Shown here in pieces: positions 1 through 7,286 of a stretch of DNA of 7,286 nt. The first letter of the stretch is position 1. Every line of letters starts with the position of its first letter. The position numbers and the translations under genes were made by a program. The DNA lies in contig USNZ01000060.1 of NCBI GenBank assembly GCA_900556255.1, forward strand, positions 1-7,286, given 5' to 3'. Origin of the DNA: an uncultured Oscillospiraceae bacterium. GTDB taxonomy: Bacteria; Bacillota; Clostridia; Oscillospirales; Ruminococcaceae. The notes below the pieces were generated by a model. The model had not been told where the DNA came from, ran no database searches, and saw only the letters and a list, made by a program, of their open reading frames with translations.

Positions 1-2215
1 CGTAGAATTGCCAGCCTTTTTTGCCGTGCTTGCACTCAAAACCGGCACTTTGCAACGCGTTTCTGAAGTCTCGGTTGTCCCTGCGGTATTCGCCATTCTC
101 TTGGCAGTACGCAGAATAGCGTTGGTAAAGATCCCGGCTGCCGACGGCGTACCCGTCGCCCAACTCCGCCTCAGCGGAAAGAAAAGCGCCCAGCCAGTCG
201 CAAGACTTCCGGTAGCCCTCCAGCGCGTTACGCACAGCAGCAGGCGGGTGCAAGGTGTACCCGTTGGCGATGAACCGCCGGGCGCCCTCGATAATCCACG
301 CCAGCACCGCGCCACCTGCCTGCGCAAACAAGACCTCCGCAAAGTCCTTTCGTTCCCCGGCGGTATCGCGCAAGTGGGCATTGAACGGCAGCACCGTCAA
401 ACGCGCCCATGTGCCACGGTCAGAGCTGCCCACGCGGGGCAGGAAATTTGTGTACAACACCAACGTATGCGAGGGAACGAAGCAAAACGGCGCACGGTAC
501 TTTGGGTTTGCGGCGATGCTGTCTGTACTGCACAGCCGCTTGACCGTGGCGGAGTCCAGCCGTTGCCCTTCCTCGGTTTCCGCCGCCAGAACCAGACGGC
601 AGCCGCGCAGCGCAGCGACTTCCGCGCCCACGTTGCCACGATTGCCCGTCAACAGCAGGTCGGGGCTTATGCCTGCGGCGTAGTCGCCTAAAACCCGCGC
701 CAGTGTGTTGAAAAACGTCGATTTTCCGTTGCCGCCGTCGCCGGTGGCAATCAGCAGAGTTTCGGTGTAAACCCTGCCCAACGCTGCCATACCTGCCACT
801 GTTTGGAGGTAGTCCGCCAGCTCAGCGTCCCCACAGGTGACCGTGTCCAGAAAGCTGCGCCACATTTCCACGCCGTCTGTACCCGGCGCCACGGAAGTCA
901 ATTTGGTGCAGCGGGCAGCAGGGTCTGACGGGTGAAGGTTGCCGGTGCGCAGGTCGACAATGCCCGCAGGGGTGTTCAAGCAGAACGGGTCGGCGTCCAG
1001 ATCATCCACCGCGCAAGCCAGACGCGGCGCTGCTTCCTTCAGCAGGTGGTCTATACCCACGCTGGAACGGCAGCGACGCGTGAAGTCCAACAGCGCCTTG
1101 GCTTTTTTCGCCCGTGCTGTTAGCTCGGCGTTTTCCGGGTCTTTGGCAGCGCTCCCCGCTGCCTGTTGGTAGTCCGATTGTGCGGTGTGCAGTTGCCGCC
1201 CCGTGAAGCTCTGTGCCAACAGTCGAACCTTGCTGTCGTCGGGGGTAAAACGGCAGCCGTCCCACGCCATCCAGCCCACGGAGGCGTTCCACAGCAGCGC
1301 CCCGGCGGTGTTCTCTGCGAACAGAACGCCCTCCGCCACATCAGACAAATCGGACAGTTTAAGGGTCAGCACCTCAACGGGAAAGCCCTGCGCGGCGTAT
1401 TCGTCGGGTGACAAGTAGCCGGGGGTCTTCCATATTTTTGCGGGCGCCGCCTTAACCGCGTTGTTCCAGATTGCCGAAAGCTCGCCATCCGACAACGGCG
1501 GATCACACTGCGTAGCCCTTTGCAGGAACGCCGTTCTCGCAGCGTCAACTCCGTTCGCTCCGTACCGACGCAGAACAGTGAAGGCAAAGGCGCTAAGCGT
1601 GGCGTTTCGCTGCCCAGCGGGTATTTGGTTGCCCGGCACTTCCCCCGCGGCAGGCAGCGCCATCGGAGTGTTCCGCGCAGTCGATGCGCGCTGACGTGCC
1701 ATATATTCATCCAGCAGTAGGGAACCTGACACCGCCGCGCCTGCCGGATGCGGCACCCCAAAATAAAACCGTCCCAGATCCTTGCAGGCATCGTCAAAAT
1801 AGCGGTACCTTGCGGTGACGGCTTCCAGCAGCCCCGCAACTTCGGTGGCATCGGTAAGCAGCCCAACGGGGAAATATACGTGGAAACGCGGCACGGCGGG
1901 CTTTCCGTCCTTTGGCTGGTCATTGTGCCGGCTGAAAACAACGTAATGCGCCACATCGGGAAAGTCCCGGCGGATTGTGGCGGGCGTGACCACCTCGCCG
2001 CTGTGGTCGTTGTCAACATCCAGCACAGCGCACTCCGTGCATCGCCAGTTGGCGGCAGACCGTTGCCCACCTGCAAACCCGCCGGGGGTGTGGTCAAACT
2101 GCGCAGCTGCCAGCAGCTCGGCTAGATTGTGAACTGTCCGGTCATCGGGATAGCTGACGTTTGACCGCTTTCCCCGCACCCTAGCGCAGGACAGTGTGAA
2201 GCACGGTATGCTCAT
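1..2215 (-). CDS. PrimPol / SF3 helicase fusion protein (phage or plasmid primase, D5/P4 type), C-terminus cut by window edge
   Basis: A single minus-strand reading frame runs from the ATG at 2215 off the left edge with no stop, giving 738 visible residues. The N-terminus looks like an archaeo-eukaryotic (PrimPol) primase: DxD in LDVDND (65-70), SRH (95-97), RFHVYFP (110-116) and LGRFYFG (147-153). Residues 201-255 (GQRNATLSAF onwards, with CDPPLSDGEL) fit the PriCT-1 domain. After a linker and a D5_N-like part (about 380-480) comes an SF3 helicase: Walker A GDGGNGKST (492-500), Walker B-like RLVLAAETEEG (540-550), sensor-like VLYTN (586-590) and an arginine-rich GTWARL (601-606). The end (about 660-738) resembles the winged-helix tail of phage primases, so few residues are probably missing. 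Proteins of this type prime and unwind DNA at the element's own origin. The start overlaps the upstream HTH gene by ATGA, and GGGGG lies 7 nt upstream, implying translational coupling. Family assignment is confident; the exact element type is not. Confidence 0.9.
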   Translation of the reverse strand, partial: MSIPCFTLSCARVRGKRSNVSYPDDRTVHNLAELLAAAQFDHTPGGFAGGQRSAANWRCTECAVLDVDNDHSGEVVTPATIRRDFPDVAHYVVFSRHNDQPKDGKPAVPRFHVYFPVGLLTDATEVAGLLEAVTARYRYFDDACKDLGRFYFGVPHPAGAAVSGSLLLDEYMARQRASTARNTPMALPAAGEVPGNQIPAGQRNATLSAFAFTVLRRYGANGVDAARTAFLQRATQCDPPLSDGELSAIWNNAVKAAPAKIWKTPGYLSPDEYAAQGFPVEVLTLKLSDLSDVAEGVLFAENTAGALLWNASVGWMAWDGCRFTPDDSKVRLLAQSFTGRQLHTAQSDYQQAAGSAAKDPENAELTARAKKAKALLDFTRRCRSSVGIDHLLKEAAPRLACAVDDLDADPFCLNTPAGIVDLRTGNLHPSDPAARCTKLTSVAPGTDGVEMWRSFLDTVTCGDAELADYLQTVAGMAALGRVYTETLLIATGDGGNGKSTFFNTLARVLGDYAAGISPDLLLTGNRGNVGAEVAALRGCRLVLAAETEEGQRLDSATVKRLCSTDSIAANPKYRAPFCFVPSHTLVLYTNFLPRVGSSDRGTWARLTVLPFNAHLRDTAGERKDFAEVLFAQAGGAVLAWIIEGARRFIANGYTLHPPAAVRNALEGYRKSCDWLGAFLSAEAELGDGYAVGSRDLYQRYSAYCQENGEYRRDNRDFRNALQSAGFECKHGKKGWQFY

Positions 2216-2445
2216 TCCAACACCCCCGACATTGCAGCGGTGTCCGCCAGGAAAACGTCGTAATACTCTGCGGGGGTCAGTTCCAGCGCCCTGCCTAAGC
2301 GCACCATGTCGCGCGCGGTAAAGTCTGCACGCCCGTACAGCCGGGCGGACAAAGCCCCGTCGCAAATTCCCATAAGCCGCGCTGCATCCCGCTGTTGCAG
2401 GTCGTGCGCCAGCAGCTTTTGACGCAGCAAAACAAATTTTTTCAT
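2212..2445 (-). CDS. Small XRE/Cro-like helix-turn-helix DNA-binding protein of the mobile element
   Basis: The product is 77 residues, beginning MKKFVLLRQKLL. The order helix, then LQQRDAARLMGICDGALSARLYG, then FTARDMVRLGRALELTPAEYYDVFL fits short phage HTH proteins: QRDAARLMGI is the first HTH helix, GALSARLYG the recognition helix, and the rest the closing helices. An upstream in-frame ATG at 2472 would add nine residues, but ATG 2445 is preceded by GGGAGG (2458-2453) with a 7-nt spacer and is preferred. The gene is first in a leftward unit with the primase and overlaps it by ATGA, so it probably acts as a regulator or replication control protein of the element. The paired repeats upstream are natural candidate binding sites, though nothing proves this. 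Repressor, activator and excisionase-like roles are all possible. Confidence 0.85.
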   Translation of the reverse strand: MKKFVLLRQKLLAHDLQQRDAARLMGICDGALSARLYGRADFTARDMVRLGRALELTPAEYYDVFLADTAAMSGVLE

Positions 2446-2474
2446 TTGAATTCCTCCCTTATACATCCACATTC

Positions 2475-2483
2475 AGCATAACA
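2475..2483 (-). promoter_or_regulatory. Candidate extended -10 promoter for the HTH-primase unit
   Basis: On the minus strand the sequence reads TGTTATGCT, an extended -10 (TG, one base, TATGCT). This places the transcription start near 2468, about 23 nt before the start codon. There is no good -35 at 17 nt; a TTGTCA at 2508-2503 sits 22 nt away, inside the first direct repeat. A second similar motif, TGTTATACC (2536-2528), lies further upstream. Position relative to the gene is good, but the match is only moderate. Confidence 0.45.
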
Positions 2484-2496
2484 CGAAACGCCCCAC

Positions 2497-2512
2497 AAAA
2501 TGTGACAAGTTT
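2497..2512. repeat. Direct repeat copy 1, AAAATGTGACAAGTTT
   Basis: This 16-bp motif recurs at 2560-2575 with one change (A to G), in the same orientation, 63 bp apart. This copy covers about -29 to -44 of the candidate HTH-gene promoter, where a bound protein would contact or block RNA polymerase. It is a candidate operator or replication iteron. Confidence 0.6.
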
Positions 2513-2559
2513 TTATTGGATGCGCTCGGTATAACATAATTTTAACATTGATTTTCGGG

Positions 2560-2575
2560 AAAATGTGACGAGTTT
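2560..2575. repeat. Direct repeat copy 2, AAAATGTGACGAGTTT
   Basis: This is the second copy of the 16-bp motif, matching copy 1 at 15 of 16 positions. An AT-rich stretch (2528-2556, ATAACATAATTTTAACATTG and following bases) lies between the two copies. The 63-bp distance is close to six turns of B-DNA, putting both copies on the same face of the helix. Confidence 0.6.
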
Positions 2576-2608
2576 ATTTTTTAGCGGTGCTTTATCCCGT
2601 GAACCGCC

Positions 2609-2629
2609 TTGACCGCATTTTTGACCGCA
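2609..2629. repeat. Short tandem direct repeat TTGACCGCA
   Basis: TTGACCGCA occurs at 2609-2617 and 2621-2629, 12 bp apart, preceded by the related GAACCGCC at 2601-2608. The location close to the attachment site suggests integrase or excisionase arm-type sites or iterons. Copies are short, so chance or slippage remains possible. Confidence 0.4.
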
Positions 2630-2639
2630 CTTTCAGACG

Positions 2640-2692
2640 CAGAAAAATAAAACGTGTGTCCAAGCCGCATTTTTTGTTGCGGTAGGACACAC
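2640..2692 (-). terminator. Minus-strand intrinsic terminator at the element end
   Basis: CGTGTGTCC (2653-2661) pairs perfectly with GGACACACG (2684-2692). Inside, CCGCA (2665-2669) pairs with TGCGG (2678-2682), leaving a small internal bulge. Read on the minus strand the stem is followed by TTTTATTTTT, the U-tract of an intrinsic terminator; the plus-strand side has no such tract. It would stop leftward transcription entering the element from the chromosomal side. No gene that it ends is visible, so an insulating role is inferred. Confidence 0.65.
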
Positions 2693-2741
2693 GAATTTGC
2701 GGATATAAACACAAATTTTTCAAGAAATACAACGTAGAATC

Positions 2742-2765
2742 GTTCAAGTCCTGTTGGCCGCACCA
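2742..2765 (+). other. Attachment-site-like 3' fragment of a tRNA gene (possibly tRNA-Leu)
   Basis: The sequence has the T-loop TTCAAGT (2743-2749) closed by G2742-C2750, the 3' T-stem strand CCTGT, the 3' acceptor strand TGGCCGC (2755-2761), discriminator A and encoded CCA (2763-2765). The 5' T-stem strand (AATCG, 2738-2742) pairs only at its ends, and no D-arm, anticodon arm or 5' acceptor strand precedes it. It is therefore the 3' part of a tRNA without its 5' part. Integrases often recombine in the 3' half of tRNA genes, leaving one rebuilt tRNA and one orphan 3' copy at the other end. The intact tRNA is expected beyond the left edge. GCCGCACCA and the A discriminator recall tRNA-Leu, but the identity is uncertain. 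Confidence 0.75.
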
Positions 2766-2794
2766 CATAATTCAGCCCCCTTCTGCGCATACTG
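2764..2794 (+). promoter_or_regulatory. Candidate sporulation (sigma-G/sigma-F type) promoter for spoIVB
   Basis: CATACTG (2788-2794) resembles the sigma-G/F -10 consensus CATACTA. CACATA, 18 nt upstream (2764-2769), is a partial match to a TGNATA-type -35. Transcription would start near 2801, after the left hairpin arm, giving an mRNA whose RBS cannot be hidden by the hairpin. In Bacillus subtilis spoIVB is read by sigma-F and sigma-G, which fits. The match is short and is an inference. Confidence 0.35.
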
Positions 2795-2815
2795 AGTGCG
2801 GAAGGGGGTTTTTGC
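2776..2815 (+). terminator. Hairpin terminator downstream of the tRNA fragment, whose 3' stem carries the spoIVB RBS
   Basis: CCCCCTTC (2776-2783) pairs perfectly with GAAGGGGG (2801-2808), extended inward by TGCGC/GTGCG with two G-U pairs. The loop is ATACTGA and the tail TTTTTG. It starts about 10 nt after the tRNA CCA and was probably the original terminator of that tRNA gene. The right arm, GGAAGGGGG, also serves as the ribosome binding site of spoIVB, so folding would hide it. Confidence 0.75.
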
Positions 2816-2816
2816 T

Positions 2817-4019
2817 ATGCTTTGGGCTAAATTTGTCCGGCCGTTGGCAGCCGGGCTGGCGGCGGCCGCTTTGCTGGGCGGGGCGGTACTTTGCGGGACA
2901 GCTGCCGCCTTGCCGGATACCTTTTATGTATCGGCGGGAGAGAGCCTGACCGTGGCATCCCTGCCGTGGGTAAAGGCAGGGGAGTCCCACGCTGCGGTCG
3001 CCCCCGCCGAGGCCGCCCGCGCTGATAAAAGCCGTAATGTCACGCTGACCGTTTTGGGCGTACCCGTAAAGACCGTCCGCACCGTGACCGCCGAGCCGCG
3101 CTGTGTATGCGTATGCGGCACACCGTTTGGCGTCAAGATGTTCTCCGATGGGGCGTTGGTGGTGGCGTTTTCCGACCGATACAACGGTTTTGGCGGGCAG
3201 AACCCTGCCAAACAGGCGGGTCTGCAATTGGGAGACTGGATCGTTTCGGTGGGCGGATATACCATACGCAGCAACGAAGACGTATCGTCAGCGCTGCAGT
3301 CCGGCGGCGGCAAACCTCTGCGCCTTGTCTACCGACGCGGCGGGCAGGAGCACACTGCCAACCTGACTCCTGTTTTGGACACCGTCTCAGGGCAGTACCG
3401 CGCGGGGGTCTGGGTGCGGGATTCCGGTGCAGGCATCGGCACACTGACCTTTATCGACCCCGAAACCTCCGCATTTGCGGGGTTGGGGCACGCGGTTAGC
3501 GACACCGACACCGGAGAAAACCTCTCGTTTCTGGCCGGCGAGATCGTTCCCGTCACCGTAACAGGCTGCCGCCGCGGCGAAGTCGGCAGCCCCGGCGAGC
3601 TGCGCGGCGAATTTATGCCCCACAGCATCGGCACCATACAAAGCAACGCTGCCTGCGGCGTATTTGGCCGTTATACCGATAGTTTCAGCTCTTTCAGCAC
3701 CTTGCCCACAGCGCATATACAGGCCGTGCACAGCGGTGCGGCCGAGATTTTGACCACCGTCAGCGGCAGCAGCCCCCAGCGCTATGCTGCCGTTATTGAG
3801 CGCATCAACCTGACCTGCGCGGAGCCAAACCGCAATCTTCTGCTGCGCATCACCGATCCGGCACTGCTGGATTCCTGCGGCGGCATTGTGCAGGGTATGA
3901 GTGGCAGCCCGATTTTGCAGGACGGCGCGCTGGTGGGGGCCGTGACCCACGTTTTTGTGAACGACCCCACGCGCGGCTACGGTATCCTGATCGAAAATAT
4001 GCTGTCGGAGATGCCCTGA
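2817..4019 (+). CDS. spoIVB: SpoIVB serine peptidase (family S55), sigma-K checkpoint protease
   Basis: The protein has 400 residues, close to the family's usual 400-430. A hydrophobic segment near residues 9-31 is a signal or membrane anchor directing it out of the forespore into the intermembrane space. A PDZ domain spans about 105-185 (NPAKQAGLQLGDWIVSVGG at 129-147). The S55 peptidase domain follows, with the histidine in GLGHAVSD (H225), the aspartate in RITDPAL (D347) and the serine in QGMSGSPI (S362). The tail AVTHVFVNDPTRGYGI is a family hallmark. In Bacillus SpoIVB cleaves SpoIVFA and so triggers processing of pro-sigma-K. ATG 2817 is preferred over the in-frame GTG at 2796: AAGGGGG lies 8 nt before it, and starting at the GTG would put the RBS inside the coding region. 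Three cysteines (C97, C99, C101) just before the PDZ domain are unusual. spo0A follows, the typical order. Confidence 0.95.
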   Translation: MLWAKFVRPLAAGLAAAALLGGAVLCGTAAALPDTFYVSAGESLTVASLPWVKAGESHAAVAPAEAARADKSRNVTLTVLGVPVKTVRTVTAEPRCVCVCGTPFGVKMFSDGALVVAFSDRYNGFGGQNPAKQAGLQLGDWIVSVGGYTIRSNEDVSSALQSGGGKPLRLVYRRGGQEHTANLTPVLDTVSGQYRAGVWVRDSGAGIGTLTFIDPETSAFAGLGHAVSDTDTGENLSFLAGEIVPVTVTGCRRGEVGSPGELRGEFMPHSIGTIQSNAACGVFGRYTDSFSSFSTLPTAHIQAVHSGAAEILTTVSGSSPQRYAAVIERINLTCAEPNRNLLLRITDPALLDSCGGIVQGMSGSPILQDGALVGAVTHVFVNDPTRGYGILIENMLSEMP

Positions 4020-4060
4020 ACCCCGCAAACGGTCTGTTTTGCCAAACCATTTTCCAATTT

Positions 4061-4091
4061 GCGCTCCGTGTCGTCGATACGGGGCGCTTTT
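4061..4091 (+). terminator. Intrinsic terminator after spoIVB
   Basis: GCGCTCCGT (4061-4069) pairs with ACGGGGCGC (4079-4087) over nine positions with one G-U pair. The loop is nine bases and the tail TTTT. It lies about 40 nt after the spoIVB stop and separates spoIVB transcription from spo0A. Confidence 0.75.
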
Positions 4092-4189
4092 GATTATCCG
4101 TAAAGGAAGGGGAAGCCCTCGATCTTTACATGCGTTTATAACGTTTTATCGTGTTTAATTTTGCACAGTAAAAGCATAGCGTCGTTTTT

Positions 4190-4196
4190 TGTCGAA
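4190..4196 (+). promoter_or_regulatory. Spo0A box (0A box) TGTCGAA upstream of spo0A
   Basis: TGTCGAA matches the 7-bp 0A box consensus exactly and lies within TTTTTTGTCGAACGAAAA. It sits about 80 nt upstream of the predicted start of the spo0A transcript, suggesting autoregulation, as known in Bacillus. A weaker half match, AGACGAA (4275-4281), lies just after the predicted start. Confidence 0.6.
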
Positions 4197-4236
4197 CGAA
4201 AATTGCGTAAATGCAGAAAAAGATGAAGAATTTCTA

Positions 4237-4265
4237 TTGCATGTTTTACCATTTTATGGTAATAT
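4237..4265 (+). promoter_or_regulatory. Sigma-A type promoter of spo0A
   Basis: TTGCAT (4237-4242) and TAATAT (4260-4265) are separated by exactly 17 nt. Transcription should start near 4272, giving a leader of about 80 nt. Both hexamers are close to consensus, and the site is the best promoter match in the gap. Confidence 0.7.
4246..4262. repeat. Palindrome TTACCAT-TTT-ATGGTAA over the spo0A promoter
   Basis: This is a perfect 7-bp inverted repeat with a 3-nt centre. It fills most of the spacer and runs into the first three bases of the -10 hexamer. Its position is that of a repressor operator. The 17-bp size suits a dimeric regulator; the protein is unknown. Confidence 0.55.
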
Positions 4266-4353
4266 TCCCATTGTAGACGAAATCAACGGATGCGCACCGT
4301 CCGCAGCCATCTGCCCGATGCCCGCCCCGTGATATGTATGGAGGAGTTTTACG

Positions 4354-5112
4354 ATGGAAAAGATCAAATTTGTTATGACGGATACCGGTGCCCAGGTCTC
4401 GGAGCTTTGCCGACATGCGCTGGAGGACAAGGGCGTTGCCGTGACTGTGTGCGAGAAAAACGGCACCAAGGCCCTGGAAACTTTGCTGAATGTACATCCC
4501 AACGCCGTTTTGCTGGATGCCTTTATGCCCGATTTGGACGCCATCACCGTAAAGCAGCGCTACGAGGCGCAGAACACCAGCAATGTGCACACCTCGTTTT
4601 TTGTGACGGGCGCTTTCCAGAGCGAGGAGATCGAGCAGGAACTGCTGGACAACGGTTTCTCGTTCTTTTTTGTAAAGCCCTTTGATGAAAGCGTACTGGT
4701 AAACCGCGTGCTGAAATCTGCCGGCAACACCGTGCGCCCACAGGCAGTTTCCTTGGATTCCGATGAGCTGACCGTGACCGAGATTTTGCACCAGATCGGC
4801 GTTCCCGCGCACATCAAGGGCTACCAGTTTCTGCGCGATGCCATCTTGCTGACCACCGCCGACCATAGCTACATCAACGCCGTGACCAAGCGCCTGTATC
4901 CTGAGATCGCCAAGCGCAACTCGACTACGGCCAGCCGGGTGGAACGCGCCATCCGCCACGCCATCGAGGTTGCCTGGGATCGCGGCGATGTGGATACCCT
5001 GAACAGCTATTTCGGCTATACCATCCACAGCCTGCGCGGCAAGCCCACCAACTCGGAATTTATCGCCATGATCAGCGACAAGATTCGGTTGGATAAAAAG
5101 CGCAGGGCATGA
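4354..5112 (+). CDS. spo0A: Spo0A, master response regulator of sporulation
   Basis: The protein has 252 residues, close to the 260-270 usual for Spo0A. The receiver domain covers about 1-122, with phosphoacceptor D55 (AVLLDAFMPD), T84 (FFVTGAF) and K108 (FFFVKPFD). The C-terminal DNA-binding domain (about 135-252) is highly conserved: LTVTEILHQIGVPAHIKGYQ, then the recognition region NSTTASRVERAIRHAIEVAW (189-208). Phosphorylated Spo0A binds 0A boxes and switches cells into sporulation. The start ATG has GGAGGAG 7 nt upstream. The acidic pocket is odd: where Bacillus has a D10-D11 pair, this protein reads MTDTGA with only D10. The TG after the beta-4 strand also replaces the common TA. The gene lies after spoIVB and is followed by its own terminator. 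Confidence 0.96.
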   Translation: MEKIKFVMTDTGAQVSELCRHALEDKGVAVTVCEKNGTKALETLLNVHPNAVLLDAFMPDLDAITVKQRYEAQNTSNVHTSFFVTGAFQSEEIEQELLDNGFSFFFVKPFDESVLVNRVLKSAGNTVRPQAVSLDSDELTVTEILHQIGVPAHIKGYQFLRDAILLTTADHSYINAVTKRLYPEIAKRNSTTASRVERAIRHAIEVAWDRGDVDTLNSYFGYTIHSLRGKPTNSEFIAMISDKIRLDKKRRA

Positions 5113-5170
5113 TTTGGCTTTTCCAAGTGCCGTTTCGGTTTGCCGGGTCATTCCCCAATACTATCTTCTG

Positions 5171-5202
5171 TCCGCCTCACCCCACGGTGCGGCGGATTTT
5201 TT
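5171..5202 (+). terminator. Intrinsic terminator after spo0A
   Basis: TCCGCC (5171-5176) pairs with GGCGGA (5191-5196), and inside it CACC pairs with GGTG around a four-base loop, with one mismatch between the two stems. TTTTTT (5197-5202) follows directly. It ends the spo0A transcript. Confidence 0.85.
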
Positions 5203-5257
5203 CTGTTTGCACAAAAAAATCCTGCCAAATTTAGTAGATTTTTTTGTCACAACCCTG

Positions 5258-5263
5258 TATAAT
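5258..5263 (+). promoter_or_regulatory. Candidate promoter -10 (TATAAT) for ispDF-cdaA
   Basis: A perfect TATAAT lies 37 nt before the ispDF start. The hexamer 17 nt upstream (TAGATT) is a poor -35. A TTGTCA at 5244-5249 is only 8 nt away, but it stands 16 nt before a TATGTA (5266-5271), so two overlapping promoters are possible. An AT-rich upstream tract (about 5212-5246) could act as an UP element. Confidence 0.55.
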
Positions 5264-5300
5264 GTTATGTAAACATTAGTAAAAGGGGGTAGTGTACCCT

Positions 5301-6434
5301 ATGACGATTTCTACATTTCCGTCCGTTACCGCTGTCATTGTTGCGGCGGGGGCCTCGCGCCGTATGGGGTTTGACAAGCTCAGTTTTCGATTACCCTGCG
5401 GCAGCACCGTTTTGCAGGAAAGCTGCGCCGCCTTCGCCGCCCACGACGCCGTTACCGAGCTTGTGCTGGTGGCAGGGCAGAATATTGCCGACTGCAAGGC
5501 CATTGCCGAGAGCTGCTCCAAGCCCTGCACCGTGGTGCAGGGAGGTGCCACCCGCGCCGACAGCGTTAAAAACGGCCTGGCCGCCGCCCACGGCGAACTG
5601 GTAGCCATCCATGATGCCGCCCGCCCCTTTGTGAGTGCCGACCTTATCACAAAAGCCTTGCAGACTGCCGCCGAAAGCGGAGCCGCCGCACCGGCTGTGC
5701 CTGTCAAAGACACCATTAAAATTGCCGCGGACAGCCGTGTCGTTTCCACGCCCGACCGCAGCACCCTGTTTGCCGTGCAGACACCCCAGTGTTTTCGCAC
5801 CGTTCTTTACCGGCAGGCATTGGCTTCCGTGGACGCCGCGACGGCGGCACTTGTCACCGACGATTGCAGCCTGTTTGAACTCGCCGGTCTGCCGGTCACA
5901 CTGACCGAGGGCGACTACGCCAACCTGAAAATCACCACCCCTGAGGATTTACAAAAGGAGAAAACCATGCGCATTGGTCACGGATATGATGTTCACCGCT
6001 TAGTCGAGGATCGCAAGCTGATTTTGGGCGGTGTGGAGATTCCTTATGAAAAGGGCCTGCTGGGTCATTCCGACGCCGACGTTCTGCTGCACGCCGTCAT
6101 GGACGCCGTGCTGGGCGCGGCAGCACTGGGCGATATCGGCAAGCATTTTCCCGATACAGACCCCGCCTATAAGGGTGCCGATTCTCTGGCGCTGACCCGT
6201 GAGGTTGCCGCCATTTTGTCCCGCCACGGCTACAAGCTGGGCAATGTGGACGCCACGCTCATCTGCCAGGCCCCCAAGCTGGCGCCGTATATTCCCGCCA
6301 TGCGCCAAAACATTGCCGAGGCCTTCGGGGTCGATATTTCTGCCGTCAGCGTAAAGGCCACTACCGAGGAACGCCTGGGTTTTACCGGCGAGGGGCTGGG
6401 CATTGCCGCCCACGCCGTAGCCTTGATCGAGTAA
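5301..6434 (+). CDS. ispDF: Bifunctional IspD/IspF enzyme of the MEP isoprenoid pathway
   Basis: This is one frame of 377 residues. Residues 1-222 are IspD (2-C-methyl-D-erythritol 4-phosphate cytidylyltransferase), making CDP-ME from MEP and [46 protein letters not shown] and TDDCSLFE. Residues 223-377 are IspF (MEcPP synthase), which cyclises CDP-ME 2-phosphate: GHGYDVHRL with metal ligands at IspF D8 and H10, [12 protein letters not shown] with the third ligand H, and [22 protein letters not shown] at the end. Both domains have normal length and are joined with almost no linker. ATG 5301 is preferred over the in-frame GTG at 5292 because GGGGG at 5285-5289 is only 2 nt from the GTG; the 11-nt spacing to the ATG is slightly long. 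A second SD and ATG occur at the domain junction. IspE, which acts between the two, is not in the window. Confidence 0.95.
5956..5969 (+). promoter_or_regulatory. Internal RBS and start codon at the IspD-IspF junction
   Basis: AGGAG (5956-5960) stands 6 nt before an in-frame ATG (5967) that begins [12 protein letters not shown], the usual N-terminus of free IspF. From here a separate 155-residue IspF could be translated, the normal size of the stand-alone enzyme. Confidence 0.5.
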
Positions 6435-6465
6435 TTTCACAGCAGGGAAGGAGGACTGGGTTCCC

Positions 6466-7286
6466 ATGCTGAAAAACGACATGATAAGCGCGATCCTTAG
6501 CAGCCTGCGCGCATTCAACCCTTTTTCTGACACAATAGACATTCTCATTATATCGTTTGTTTTTTACCAGCTTGTCTTGTTTGCACGGCGTTCTCGTGCC
6601 GGCCAGCTGGTCAAGGGCATCTTCTTGCTGGTGGTGTTTTACGGCTTGGCTGTCATGCTGCAGCTGCGCACCGTCACCTGGCTGTTGAATAACGTCATCA
6701 CCATCGGCTTTATGGCCGCCGTGGTTATCTTTCAGCCGGAACTGCGCCGCACACTGGAGCGCATGGGGCAAAGCGCCAGCTGGTCCAGCAAGCTGTTCGG
6801 CAGCTACCGACGCGCCGACCCCACCCTGCGCGGGGCATGGCAGAGCGCCGTCGTGGCTATCTGCGACGCTGCCGAGCAGCTTTCCGACACGCGCACCGGC
6901 GCACTTATGGTTTTGGAACGCCGCAACAATCTGGATGAGATCATCCGCACCGGAACGCCGATGCACGCCGATGTCATCCGCGAGATGCTGGGCACCATTT
7001 TCTATGAAGGCACACCCCTGCATGACGGCGCGGTAGTCATCCGCGACGGCGAAATTGTTGCCGCGGGCTGTGTGCTGCCGCTGTCCAACAACCTGGAAAT
7101 GGGCAAGGACATGGGCACCCGCCACCGCGCGGGCCTTGGCATGAGCGAGAATTCCGATGCCATCGTCGTCATTGTCAGCGAGGAGACCGGTATTATCTCC
7201 CTGGCCAAAAACGGCGTACTGATTCGCCGCCTGGACCGCCAGAACCTGTTCAACCTGCTGCAGGAGGAAGTCGTCCCGCCGGAGGA
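6466..7286 (+). CDS. cdaA: CdaA-type membrane diadenylate cyclase (c-di-AMP synthase), 3' end cut by window edge
   Basis: The frame is open from ATG 6466 to the right edge, giving 273 visible residues; family members are about 270-290 long, so little is missing. Three hydrophobic helices lie at about 25-42, 50-66 and 72-90 (ending VVIFQPELRRTLER), as in CdaA. The DAC domain follows, with GTPLHDGAVVI (DGA at 187-189) and GTRHRAG (RHR at 219-221), the two catalytic motifs that bind ATP and metal. The enzyme joins two ATP into c-di-AMP, which controls potassium and osmolyte transport and cell-wall balance. The start has AAGGAGG (6448-6454) with a rather long 11-nt gap; a second ATG at 6481 is possible. 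It lies 31 nt after ispDF on the same strand with no terminator between them, so one operon is likely. The usual partner cdaR would lie beyond the edge. Confidence 0.95.
   Translation, partial: MLKNDMISAILSSLRAFNPFSDTIDILIISFVFYQLVLFARRSRAGQLVKGIFLLVVFYGLAVMLQLRTVTWLLNNVITIGFMAAVVIFQPELRRTLERMGQSASWSSKLFGSYRRADPTLRGAWQSAVVAICDAAEQLSDTRTGALMVLERRNNLDEIIRTGTPMHADVIREMLGTIFYEGTPLHDGAVVIRDGEIVAAGCVLPLSNNLEMGKDMGTRHRAGLGMSENSDAIVVIVSEETGIISLAKNGVLIRRLDRQNLFNLLQEEVVPPE

Follow-up and report, generated by a model that had tools for sequence, protein, structure and literature searches.

A displaced tRNA-Leu(UAG) 3′ end beside spoIVB: the predicted attachment site of a mobile element in a Gemmiger-type bacterium

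Introduction

How does the 3′ end of a tRNA, without the rest of its gene, come to lie just upstream of a core sporulation gene? The question is raised by a 7,286-nucleotide stretch of DNA from an uncultured Oscillospiraceae bacterium (contig USNZ01000060.1 of assembly GCA_900556255.1, positions 1 to 7,286), which was analysed as a whole and is referred to here as the window. An earlier note on this DNA had read the fragment as the boundary of an integrated element next to spoIVB. Such fragments have a described counterpart: tDNA islands in the sense of Islander are characterized by a displaced 3′ tDNA fragment that runs from the T-loop and lies beside mobile genes, and crossovers at the T-loop and at the T/acceptor junction are treated as one class (PMC4383910).

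The fragment and its donor tRNA

Positions 2742-2765 of the window read GTTCAAGTCCTGTTGGCCGCACCA on the plus strand, a sequence composed of a T-loop, the 3′ strand of the T-stem, the 3′ strand of the acceptor stem, the discriminator A and CCA. It lies between a small HTH gene and spoIVB, and the only ORF of at least 60 aa that overlaps it is found on the minus strand (2581-2790). When up to three mismatches are allowed the fragment has a single match across the window, and a match was present in none of 200 dinucleotide shuffles. ARAGORN called no tRNA in the window, the rest of a tRNA is absent around the fragment, and Rfam searches of the window at gathering scores returned nothing.

All 24 bases recur without a mismatch at the 3′ ends of intact tRNA-Leu(UAG) genes in Gemmiger-type genomes (G033 and G034), and in a third (G002) the tRNA-Leu(UAG) 3′ end is identical at 21/21 bases without the CCA; the identity between fragment and tRNA-Leu(UAG) ends at the first base of GTTC. 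Matches with at most three mismatches were found in 7 of the first 11 genomes searched. A looser pattern matched at 18 places in 17 of the 35 genomes of the genus, and 17 of these places lie inside an ARAGORN tRNA-Leu with the anticodon TAG, the exception being an orphan copy in G033. Because of these 17 places and of the 24-base identity with the G033 and G034 genes, the donor gene is, by sequence comparison, tRNA-Leu(UAG), an identity that the earlier note had not given; its description of a piece running from T-loop to CCA without the remainder of the tRNA is borne out by the same identity and by the ARAGORN result. The exact 24-mer was also sought in viral contigs and was found in none. 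On the basis of its identity to tRNA-Leu(UAG) 3′ ends and of the shuffles, 2742-2765 (plus strand) is annotated as the displaced 3′ end of this tRNA and the core of a predicted attR.

Genes on either side

To the left of the fragment the genes are of phage type. A primase-helicase gene of phages and satellites occupies positions 2-2215 of the minus strand (D5_N and DUF5906 in Pfam; phrog_1883, E 9.4e-214), and the contig terminates within it, the frame of 738 codons being still open where the contig ends. Its ATG overlaps the stop codon of a small HTH gene of 77 aa (2212-2445, minus strand; HTH_3, E 1.7e-4, just below the Pfam cut-off), with which the element opens on this side; a start at 2445 is more likely than one at 2472, judging by eye from the Shine-Dalgarno sequence. 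Before the HTH gene there is an imperfect direct repeat, with 21-base copies 63 bases apart (2497-2517 and 2560-2580), which are possible operators for the HTH protein. Pfam and phrog searches of the ORFs and domains in the visible 2.7 kb of the element side revealed no integrase.

To the right lies spoIVB (2817-4019, plus strand; Peptidase_S55, E 3.6e-75, and PDZ), the host gene that borders the element; beyond it the domain search identified Spo0A, a single frame with IspD-IspF, and CdaA. The domain searches thus agree with the earlier description of a phage-type HTH gene and primase-helicase on the left and core sporulation genes on the right. As a separate observation, the IspD and IspF (YgbB) domains share one open frame at 5292-6434, a fused IspDF gene.

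A repeat pair with integrase-family geometry

Between the HTH gene and the fragment, positions 2609-2632 of the plus strand consist of TTGACCGCATTT followed by TTGACCGCACTT, with a unit spacing of 12. When up to three mismatches are tolerated, a related repeat pattern has one occurrence in the window and none in 200 shuffles. A degenerate pattern of the pair is found in only two of the 35 genus genomes, G030 and G034, and its reversed control in none. The G030 match is identical to the window pair over 24 bases and closely follows a gene for a tyrosine integrase, whilst the G034 match lies just after a tRNA-Leu(UAG) gene. Chance matching was considered as the source of both the fragment and the repeat pair and was rejected (0/200 shuffles in each case).

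A search with the G033 integrase at E<=1e-20 gave 17 matches in 13 of the 35 genomes, G033 itself being counted. At 11 of the 16 other loci one finds, after the stop of the integrase gene, first two units 11-13 bases apart and then an orphan tRNA 3′ end, with 121-124 bases from the start of the last unit to the T-loop; the repeat-unit patterns for this count were written after the sequences had been viewed, and some of the loci are near-identical, so that the 11 are not 11 independent events. The integrase adjoins the repeats in all 11, which is partly a matter of selection because the loci were collected by their integrase. The window has the att geometry of this G033/G030 integrase family, with a unit spacing of 12 and a distance of 120 bases from last unit to fragment, one below the observed range; in G033 the distance is 123 with a unit spacing of 11. 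From this position we infer that the window repeats, identical to those of G030, are arm-type sites bound by a tyrosine integrase. The geometry is absent from the other five loci (L234, L235, L236, L238 and L239), and in the window the neighbour of the repeat pair is the HTH gene, whereas in the 11 loci that show the geometry it is an integrase.

Viral sequences were searched too. The repeat-pair pattern occurs in nine IMG/VR stretches, with a family integrase within the fetched stretch in two (L214 and L218) and not in seven, and the search of viral contigs for the G033 integrase yielded four pattern matches, none of which was a relative.

Elements with a similar layout in related genomes

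The closest parallel is found in G033. One of its contigs (C72) carries, in order, fumarate hydratase genes, tRNA-Leu(UAG), the integrase and an HTH gene before the contig ends; another (C126) carries a Phage_holin_6_1 gene, the orphan fragment, a HAD gene, spoIVB and a spo0A-like ORF. The two are read as the two ends of one prophage. This element shares with the window the tRNA-Leu(UAG) target, 21 identical fragment bases, spoIVB on the host side and a repeat pair near the fragment (123 bases). It differs in that a holin gene stands at the fragment end, where the window has HTH-primase, that fragment and spoIVB are separated by the HAD gene and one or more additional ORFs, that the fragment lacks CCA, that the repeat spacing is 11, and that the tRNA and the fragment fall on different contigs. 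The orphan 3′ end of G033 (L204, 1099-1119) and the corresponding end of the intact tRNA-Leu (L203, 6118-6141) were also compared directly: CCA is encoded in the latter but not in the former, so that in G033 the element may have supplied the CCA-bearing end.

In G030 and G022, a tRNA-Val gene and its 3′ fragment, oriented alike and on one contig, bound an island of about 10 kb whose integrase adjoins the fragment. The tRNA-Val repeat blocks are 25 bases long in G030 and 27 in G022, and lie 9,986 and 9,816 bases apart, respectively (L343, 532-10518; L344, 1816-11632). Six proteins of the G030 island were scanned for domains, giving an integrase, Zeta_toxin, HTH_3 and AAA_25, with two giving no match. 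Both islands resemble the window in the repeat pair of this integrase family (the G030 pair being identical over 24 bases) and in a similar distance from pair to fragment (124 in both islands), but they differ from it in targeting tRNA-Val and in having the integrase next to the fragment; the window primase has no match in the G030 or G022 genome. The repeat blocks of G030, G022 and G033 all begin within two bases of the point at which the window fragment breaks in the T-loop. Of the Islander signature, the displaced 3′ tRNA fragment is present in the window (24/24 bases), and the intact cognate tRNA in the same orientation at the far end is present in G030 and G022 and, on a second contig, in G033. 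The window differs from described tDNA islands in that the cognate tRNA and the integrase of its element would fall outside the contig.

The spoIVB neighbourhood

SpoIVB proteins 99%, 95% and 84% identical to that of the window are known (P0001-P0003), and the best relatives in the genome collection are ten Gemmiger-labelled loci at 52-61% identity (L001-L008, L010 and L011); none of 396 family genomes had a closer spoIVB at E<=1e-155. In a sample of 396 family genomes, the same one as far as the genomes listed go, 346 had a match to spoIVB, and 52 loci were compared, comprising 30 of the 34 matching genus genomes and the 22 best-scoring further family loci (L115-L144 and L181-L202, with upstream stretches of 243-1500 bases). 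A tRNA lies upstream of spoIVB in 30 of the 52, in every case a tRNA-Leu, with two isoacceptors and both orientations represented, and none was found in the other 22; the spoIVB site is hence a frequent tRNA-Leu neighbourhood. In 23 loci tRNA-Leu(UAG) points away from spoIVB, the commonest arrangement and one that would not yield the orientation of the window fragment; in six tRNA-Leu(CAG), and in one (G032) tRNA-Leu(UAG), points in the same direction as spoIVB. The fragment is therefore oriented as in the less common arrangement, and to some degree this speaks against a simple history.

The G032 locus, in the order tRNA-Leu(UAG) - HAD - spoIVB, is an unoccupied counterpart of G033, and its HAD protein is 57% identical to that of G033. 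In the comparison of relatives for an empty site, proposed in the earlier note, the nearest unoccupied site in the same orientation was that of G032, and none was found in the close lineage of the window among the relatives compared. No other orphan tRNA 3′ end was seen near spoIVB in the 52 loci with a pattern that required CCA, covered stretches of up to 1.5 kb and is blind to the G033 fragment. A search for viral contigs encoding SpoIVB gave 16 pattern matches and no relatives, and spoIVB did not occur in the literature on the subject among the matches listed.

What kind of element

The primase belongs to phrog_1883; its best protein relative (P0121) is 94% identical, and the other 119 among the matches listed are 62-72% identical. 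Searches for a closer primase gave 13 of 35 genus genomes at E<=0.001 with only 22-39% identity, 11 of 396 family genomes at E<=1e-130 with 37-42% identity, none of 394 genomes of the order at E<=1e-180 (a search run without a positive control) and, on plasmids, a best identity of 40.6% among the matches listed. Three IMG/VR loci have a related primase (41% in L078, 38% in L083 and 56% in L297, over the matched parts), that of L297, over the C-terminal third, being the highest local identity among the viral loci kept. In L297 portal, protease-capsid and terminase genes come after the primase; in L083 portal, protease-capsid, HNH and terminase genes come after it and integrase-like ORFs before it, and L078 has by eye the same layout as L083. 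L078 is further like the window in having a 69-aa ORF, judged by eye to be HTH-like, that overlaps the one for the primase, whereas L078 and L083 are unlike it in having integrase-like ORFs and a repressor-like ORF beside the primase. The layout of the three loci resembles that of the capsid-forming PICIs, which carry capsid, protease, portal, connector, terminase and HNH genes and obtain tails from a helper (PMC10690885).

By contrast with this resemblance to satellites, L301, whose best segment is 49% identical, and the primase relatives at 37-42% that were examined lie in what by eye resemble ordinary phage replication modules. The element in the window could well be a satellite, and it could just as well be a prophage. 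The HTH protein has four relatives at E<=0.01 among the ORFs of the loci compared (E 1e-7 to 5e-3; L235, L236, L237 and L239), all of them in integrase-family loci and three of them among the five loci that lack the repeat-pair geometry.

The spoIVB promoter and hairpin

Directly after the CCA there begins a putative promoter of spoIVB (2766-2794, plus strand), with CATAAT at 2766-2771 and CATACTG at 2788-2794, which we take to be of the sporulation sigma class; similar motifs are seen by eye at similar places in relatives. Overlapping the putative -10 is a 15-bp hairpin (2774-2810, plus strand; -28.1 kcal/mol, z -5.8, with 0/200 shuffles as stable), which covers the ribosome-binding site, the Shine-Dalgarno sequence lying within its 3′ arm. 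As the 5′ arm lies upstream of the putative -10, RNA made from that promoter would lack this arm, whilst read-through RNA would fold, and the hairpin could block translation of the latter. Among 31 genus sequences (the window counted) a stem that reaches the Shine-Dalgarno region is conspicuous in 14, and among 20 family sequences in 3. A sequence was counted if no more than 10 of 200 shuffles of its 35 upstream bases equalled its best such stem, straddling of the -10 was not required, the family set was 20 of the 22 family loci, and start codons were chosen by a script throughout. Given the script-chosen start codons and the assumed promoter class, the hairpin is a lead only. A broader and rather improbable proposal is that the tRNA-Leu/spoIVB junction serves as a recurrent docking site for satellites at the edge of a sporulation promoter, with the hairpin as a gate that would hide the ribosome-binding site on tRNA or element RNA, so that only spoIVB RNA from its own promoter would be translated.

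Discussion

Taken together, the fragment and the repeat pair very probably form the attR of a mobile element inserted into a tRNA-Leu(UAG) gene, a prediction made from sequence. A tyrosine integrase would have bound the arm repeats, and the attP of the element, bearing its own copy of the tRNA 3′ end, would have recombined with tRNA-Leu(UAG) at the T-loop/acceptor end of that gene. At the far left, a place predicted to lie past the end of the contig, a whole tRNA would be rebuilt from the imported copy, whilst next to spoIVB the original 3′ end would remain. At this end the element would start with the HTH regulator gene overlapping the primase-helicase gene, and its integrase would lie at the far end, as appears to be so in G033, or would have been lost. 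The predicted empty site would run from tRNA-Leu(UAG) directly into CATAATTCAGCCCCC. With its start at 2766, the putative spoIVB promoter would not be disrupted by the insertion.

The earlier reading of the fragment as the boundary of an integrated element is supported by its orientation, the flanking genes, the repeat pair 120 bases away and the layouts in G033, G030 and G022. In favour of an attR are likewise the phage primase and HTH gene on the element side and the unoccupied layout of G032; against it count the lack of an intact tRNA or integrase in the window, the HTH gene rather than an integrase beside the repeats, the five of 16 loci without the geometry, the distance of 120 below the range of 121-124, the rare orientation (1/52) and the lack of an empty site in any close relative among those compared.

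The alternative that fares best holds that the locus is an immobile relic, an old insertion that has lost its integrase and perhaps most of its genes, with the fragment as a fossil attR. This end carries no integrase, unlike its counterpart in the 11 loci that show the geometry, and G034 offers a precedent: a tRNA-Leu(UAG) gene is followed by the repeat pair (L205, at about 8250-8420) in a genome that has no integrase-family match at E<=1e-20, likely the scar of a lost element. However, the window primase is open over its 738 codons to the contig end with its start overlapping the HTH stop, the fragment and repeat pair are undamaged, and a relic is considered unlikely. Far less probable is an ordinary deletion that truncated a tRNA gene, the phage genes having come independently; tRNA-Leu is indeed frequent by spoIVB (30/52 loci), but the break falls at the T-loop, where the G030, G022 and G033 repeat blocks also begin within two bases, and the repeat pair is at nearly the integrase-family distance. 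The short contig might suggest an assembly chimera, in which an element contig was joined to a spoIVB contig through a short shared repeat, but the shared repeat is no longer than 24 bases, and repeat pair and core are spaced as in related loci, which makes this very improbable as well.

The preferred reading, the attR of an element that targets a tRNA gene, is likely a familiar kind of insertion scar, possibly that of a small satellite; the observation is confirmed, its interpretation is well supported and its kind is ordinary. Its interest lies in the exact target, in the att ruler and in the adjoining promoter hairpin. In a bacterium of Gemmiger type, one exact end has been fixed for what is likely a mobile element, with tRNA-Leu(UAG) named as its target, and the element has been tied to an integrase family with a simple ruler of repeat pair, about 121 bases and tRNA T-loop, which could locate element ends on short contigs that carry neither integrase nor tRNA. 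Since the putative promoter next to the site is that of a core sporulation protease, the effects that insertion may have on spore formation are testable.
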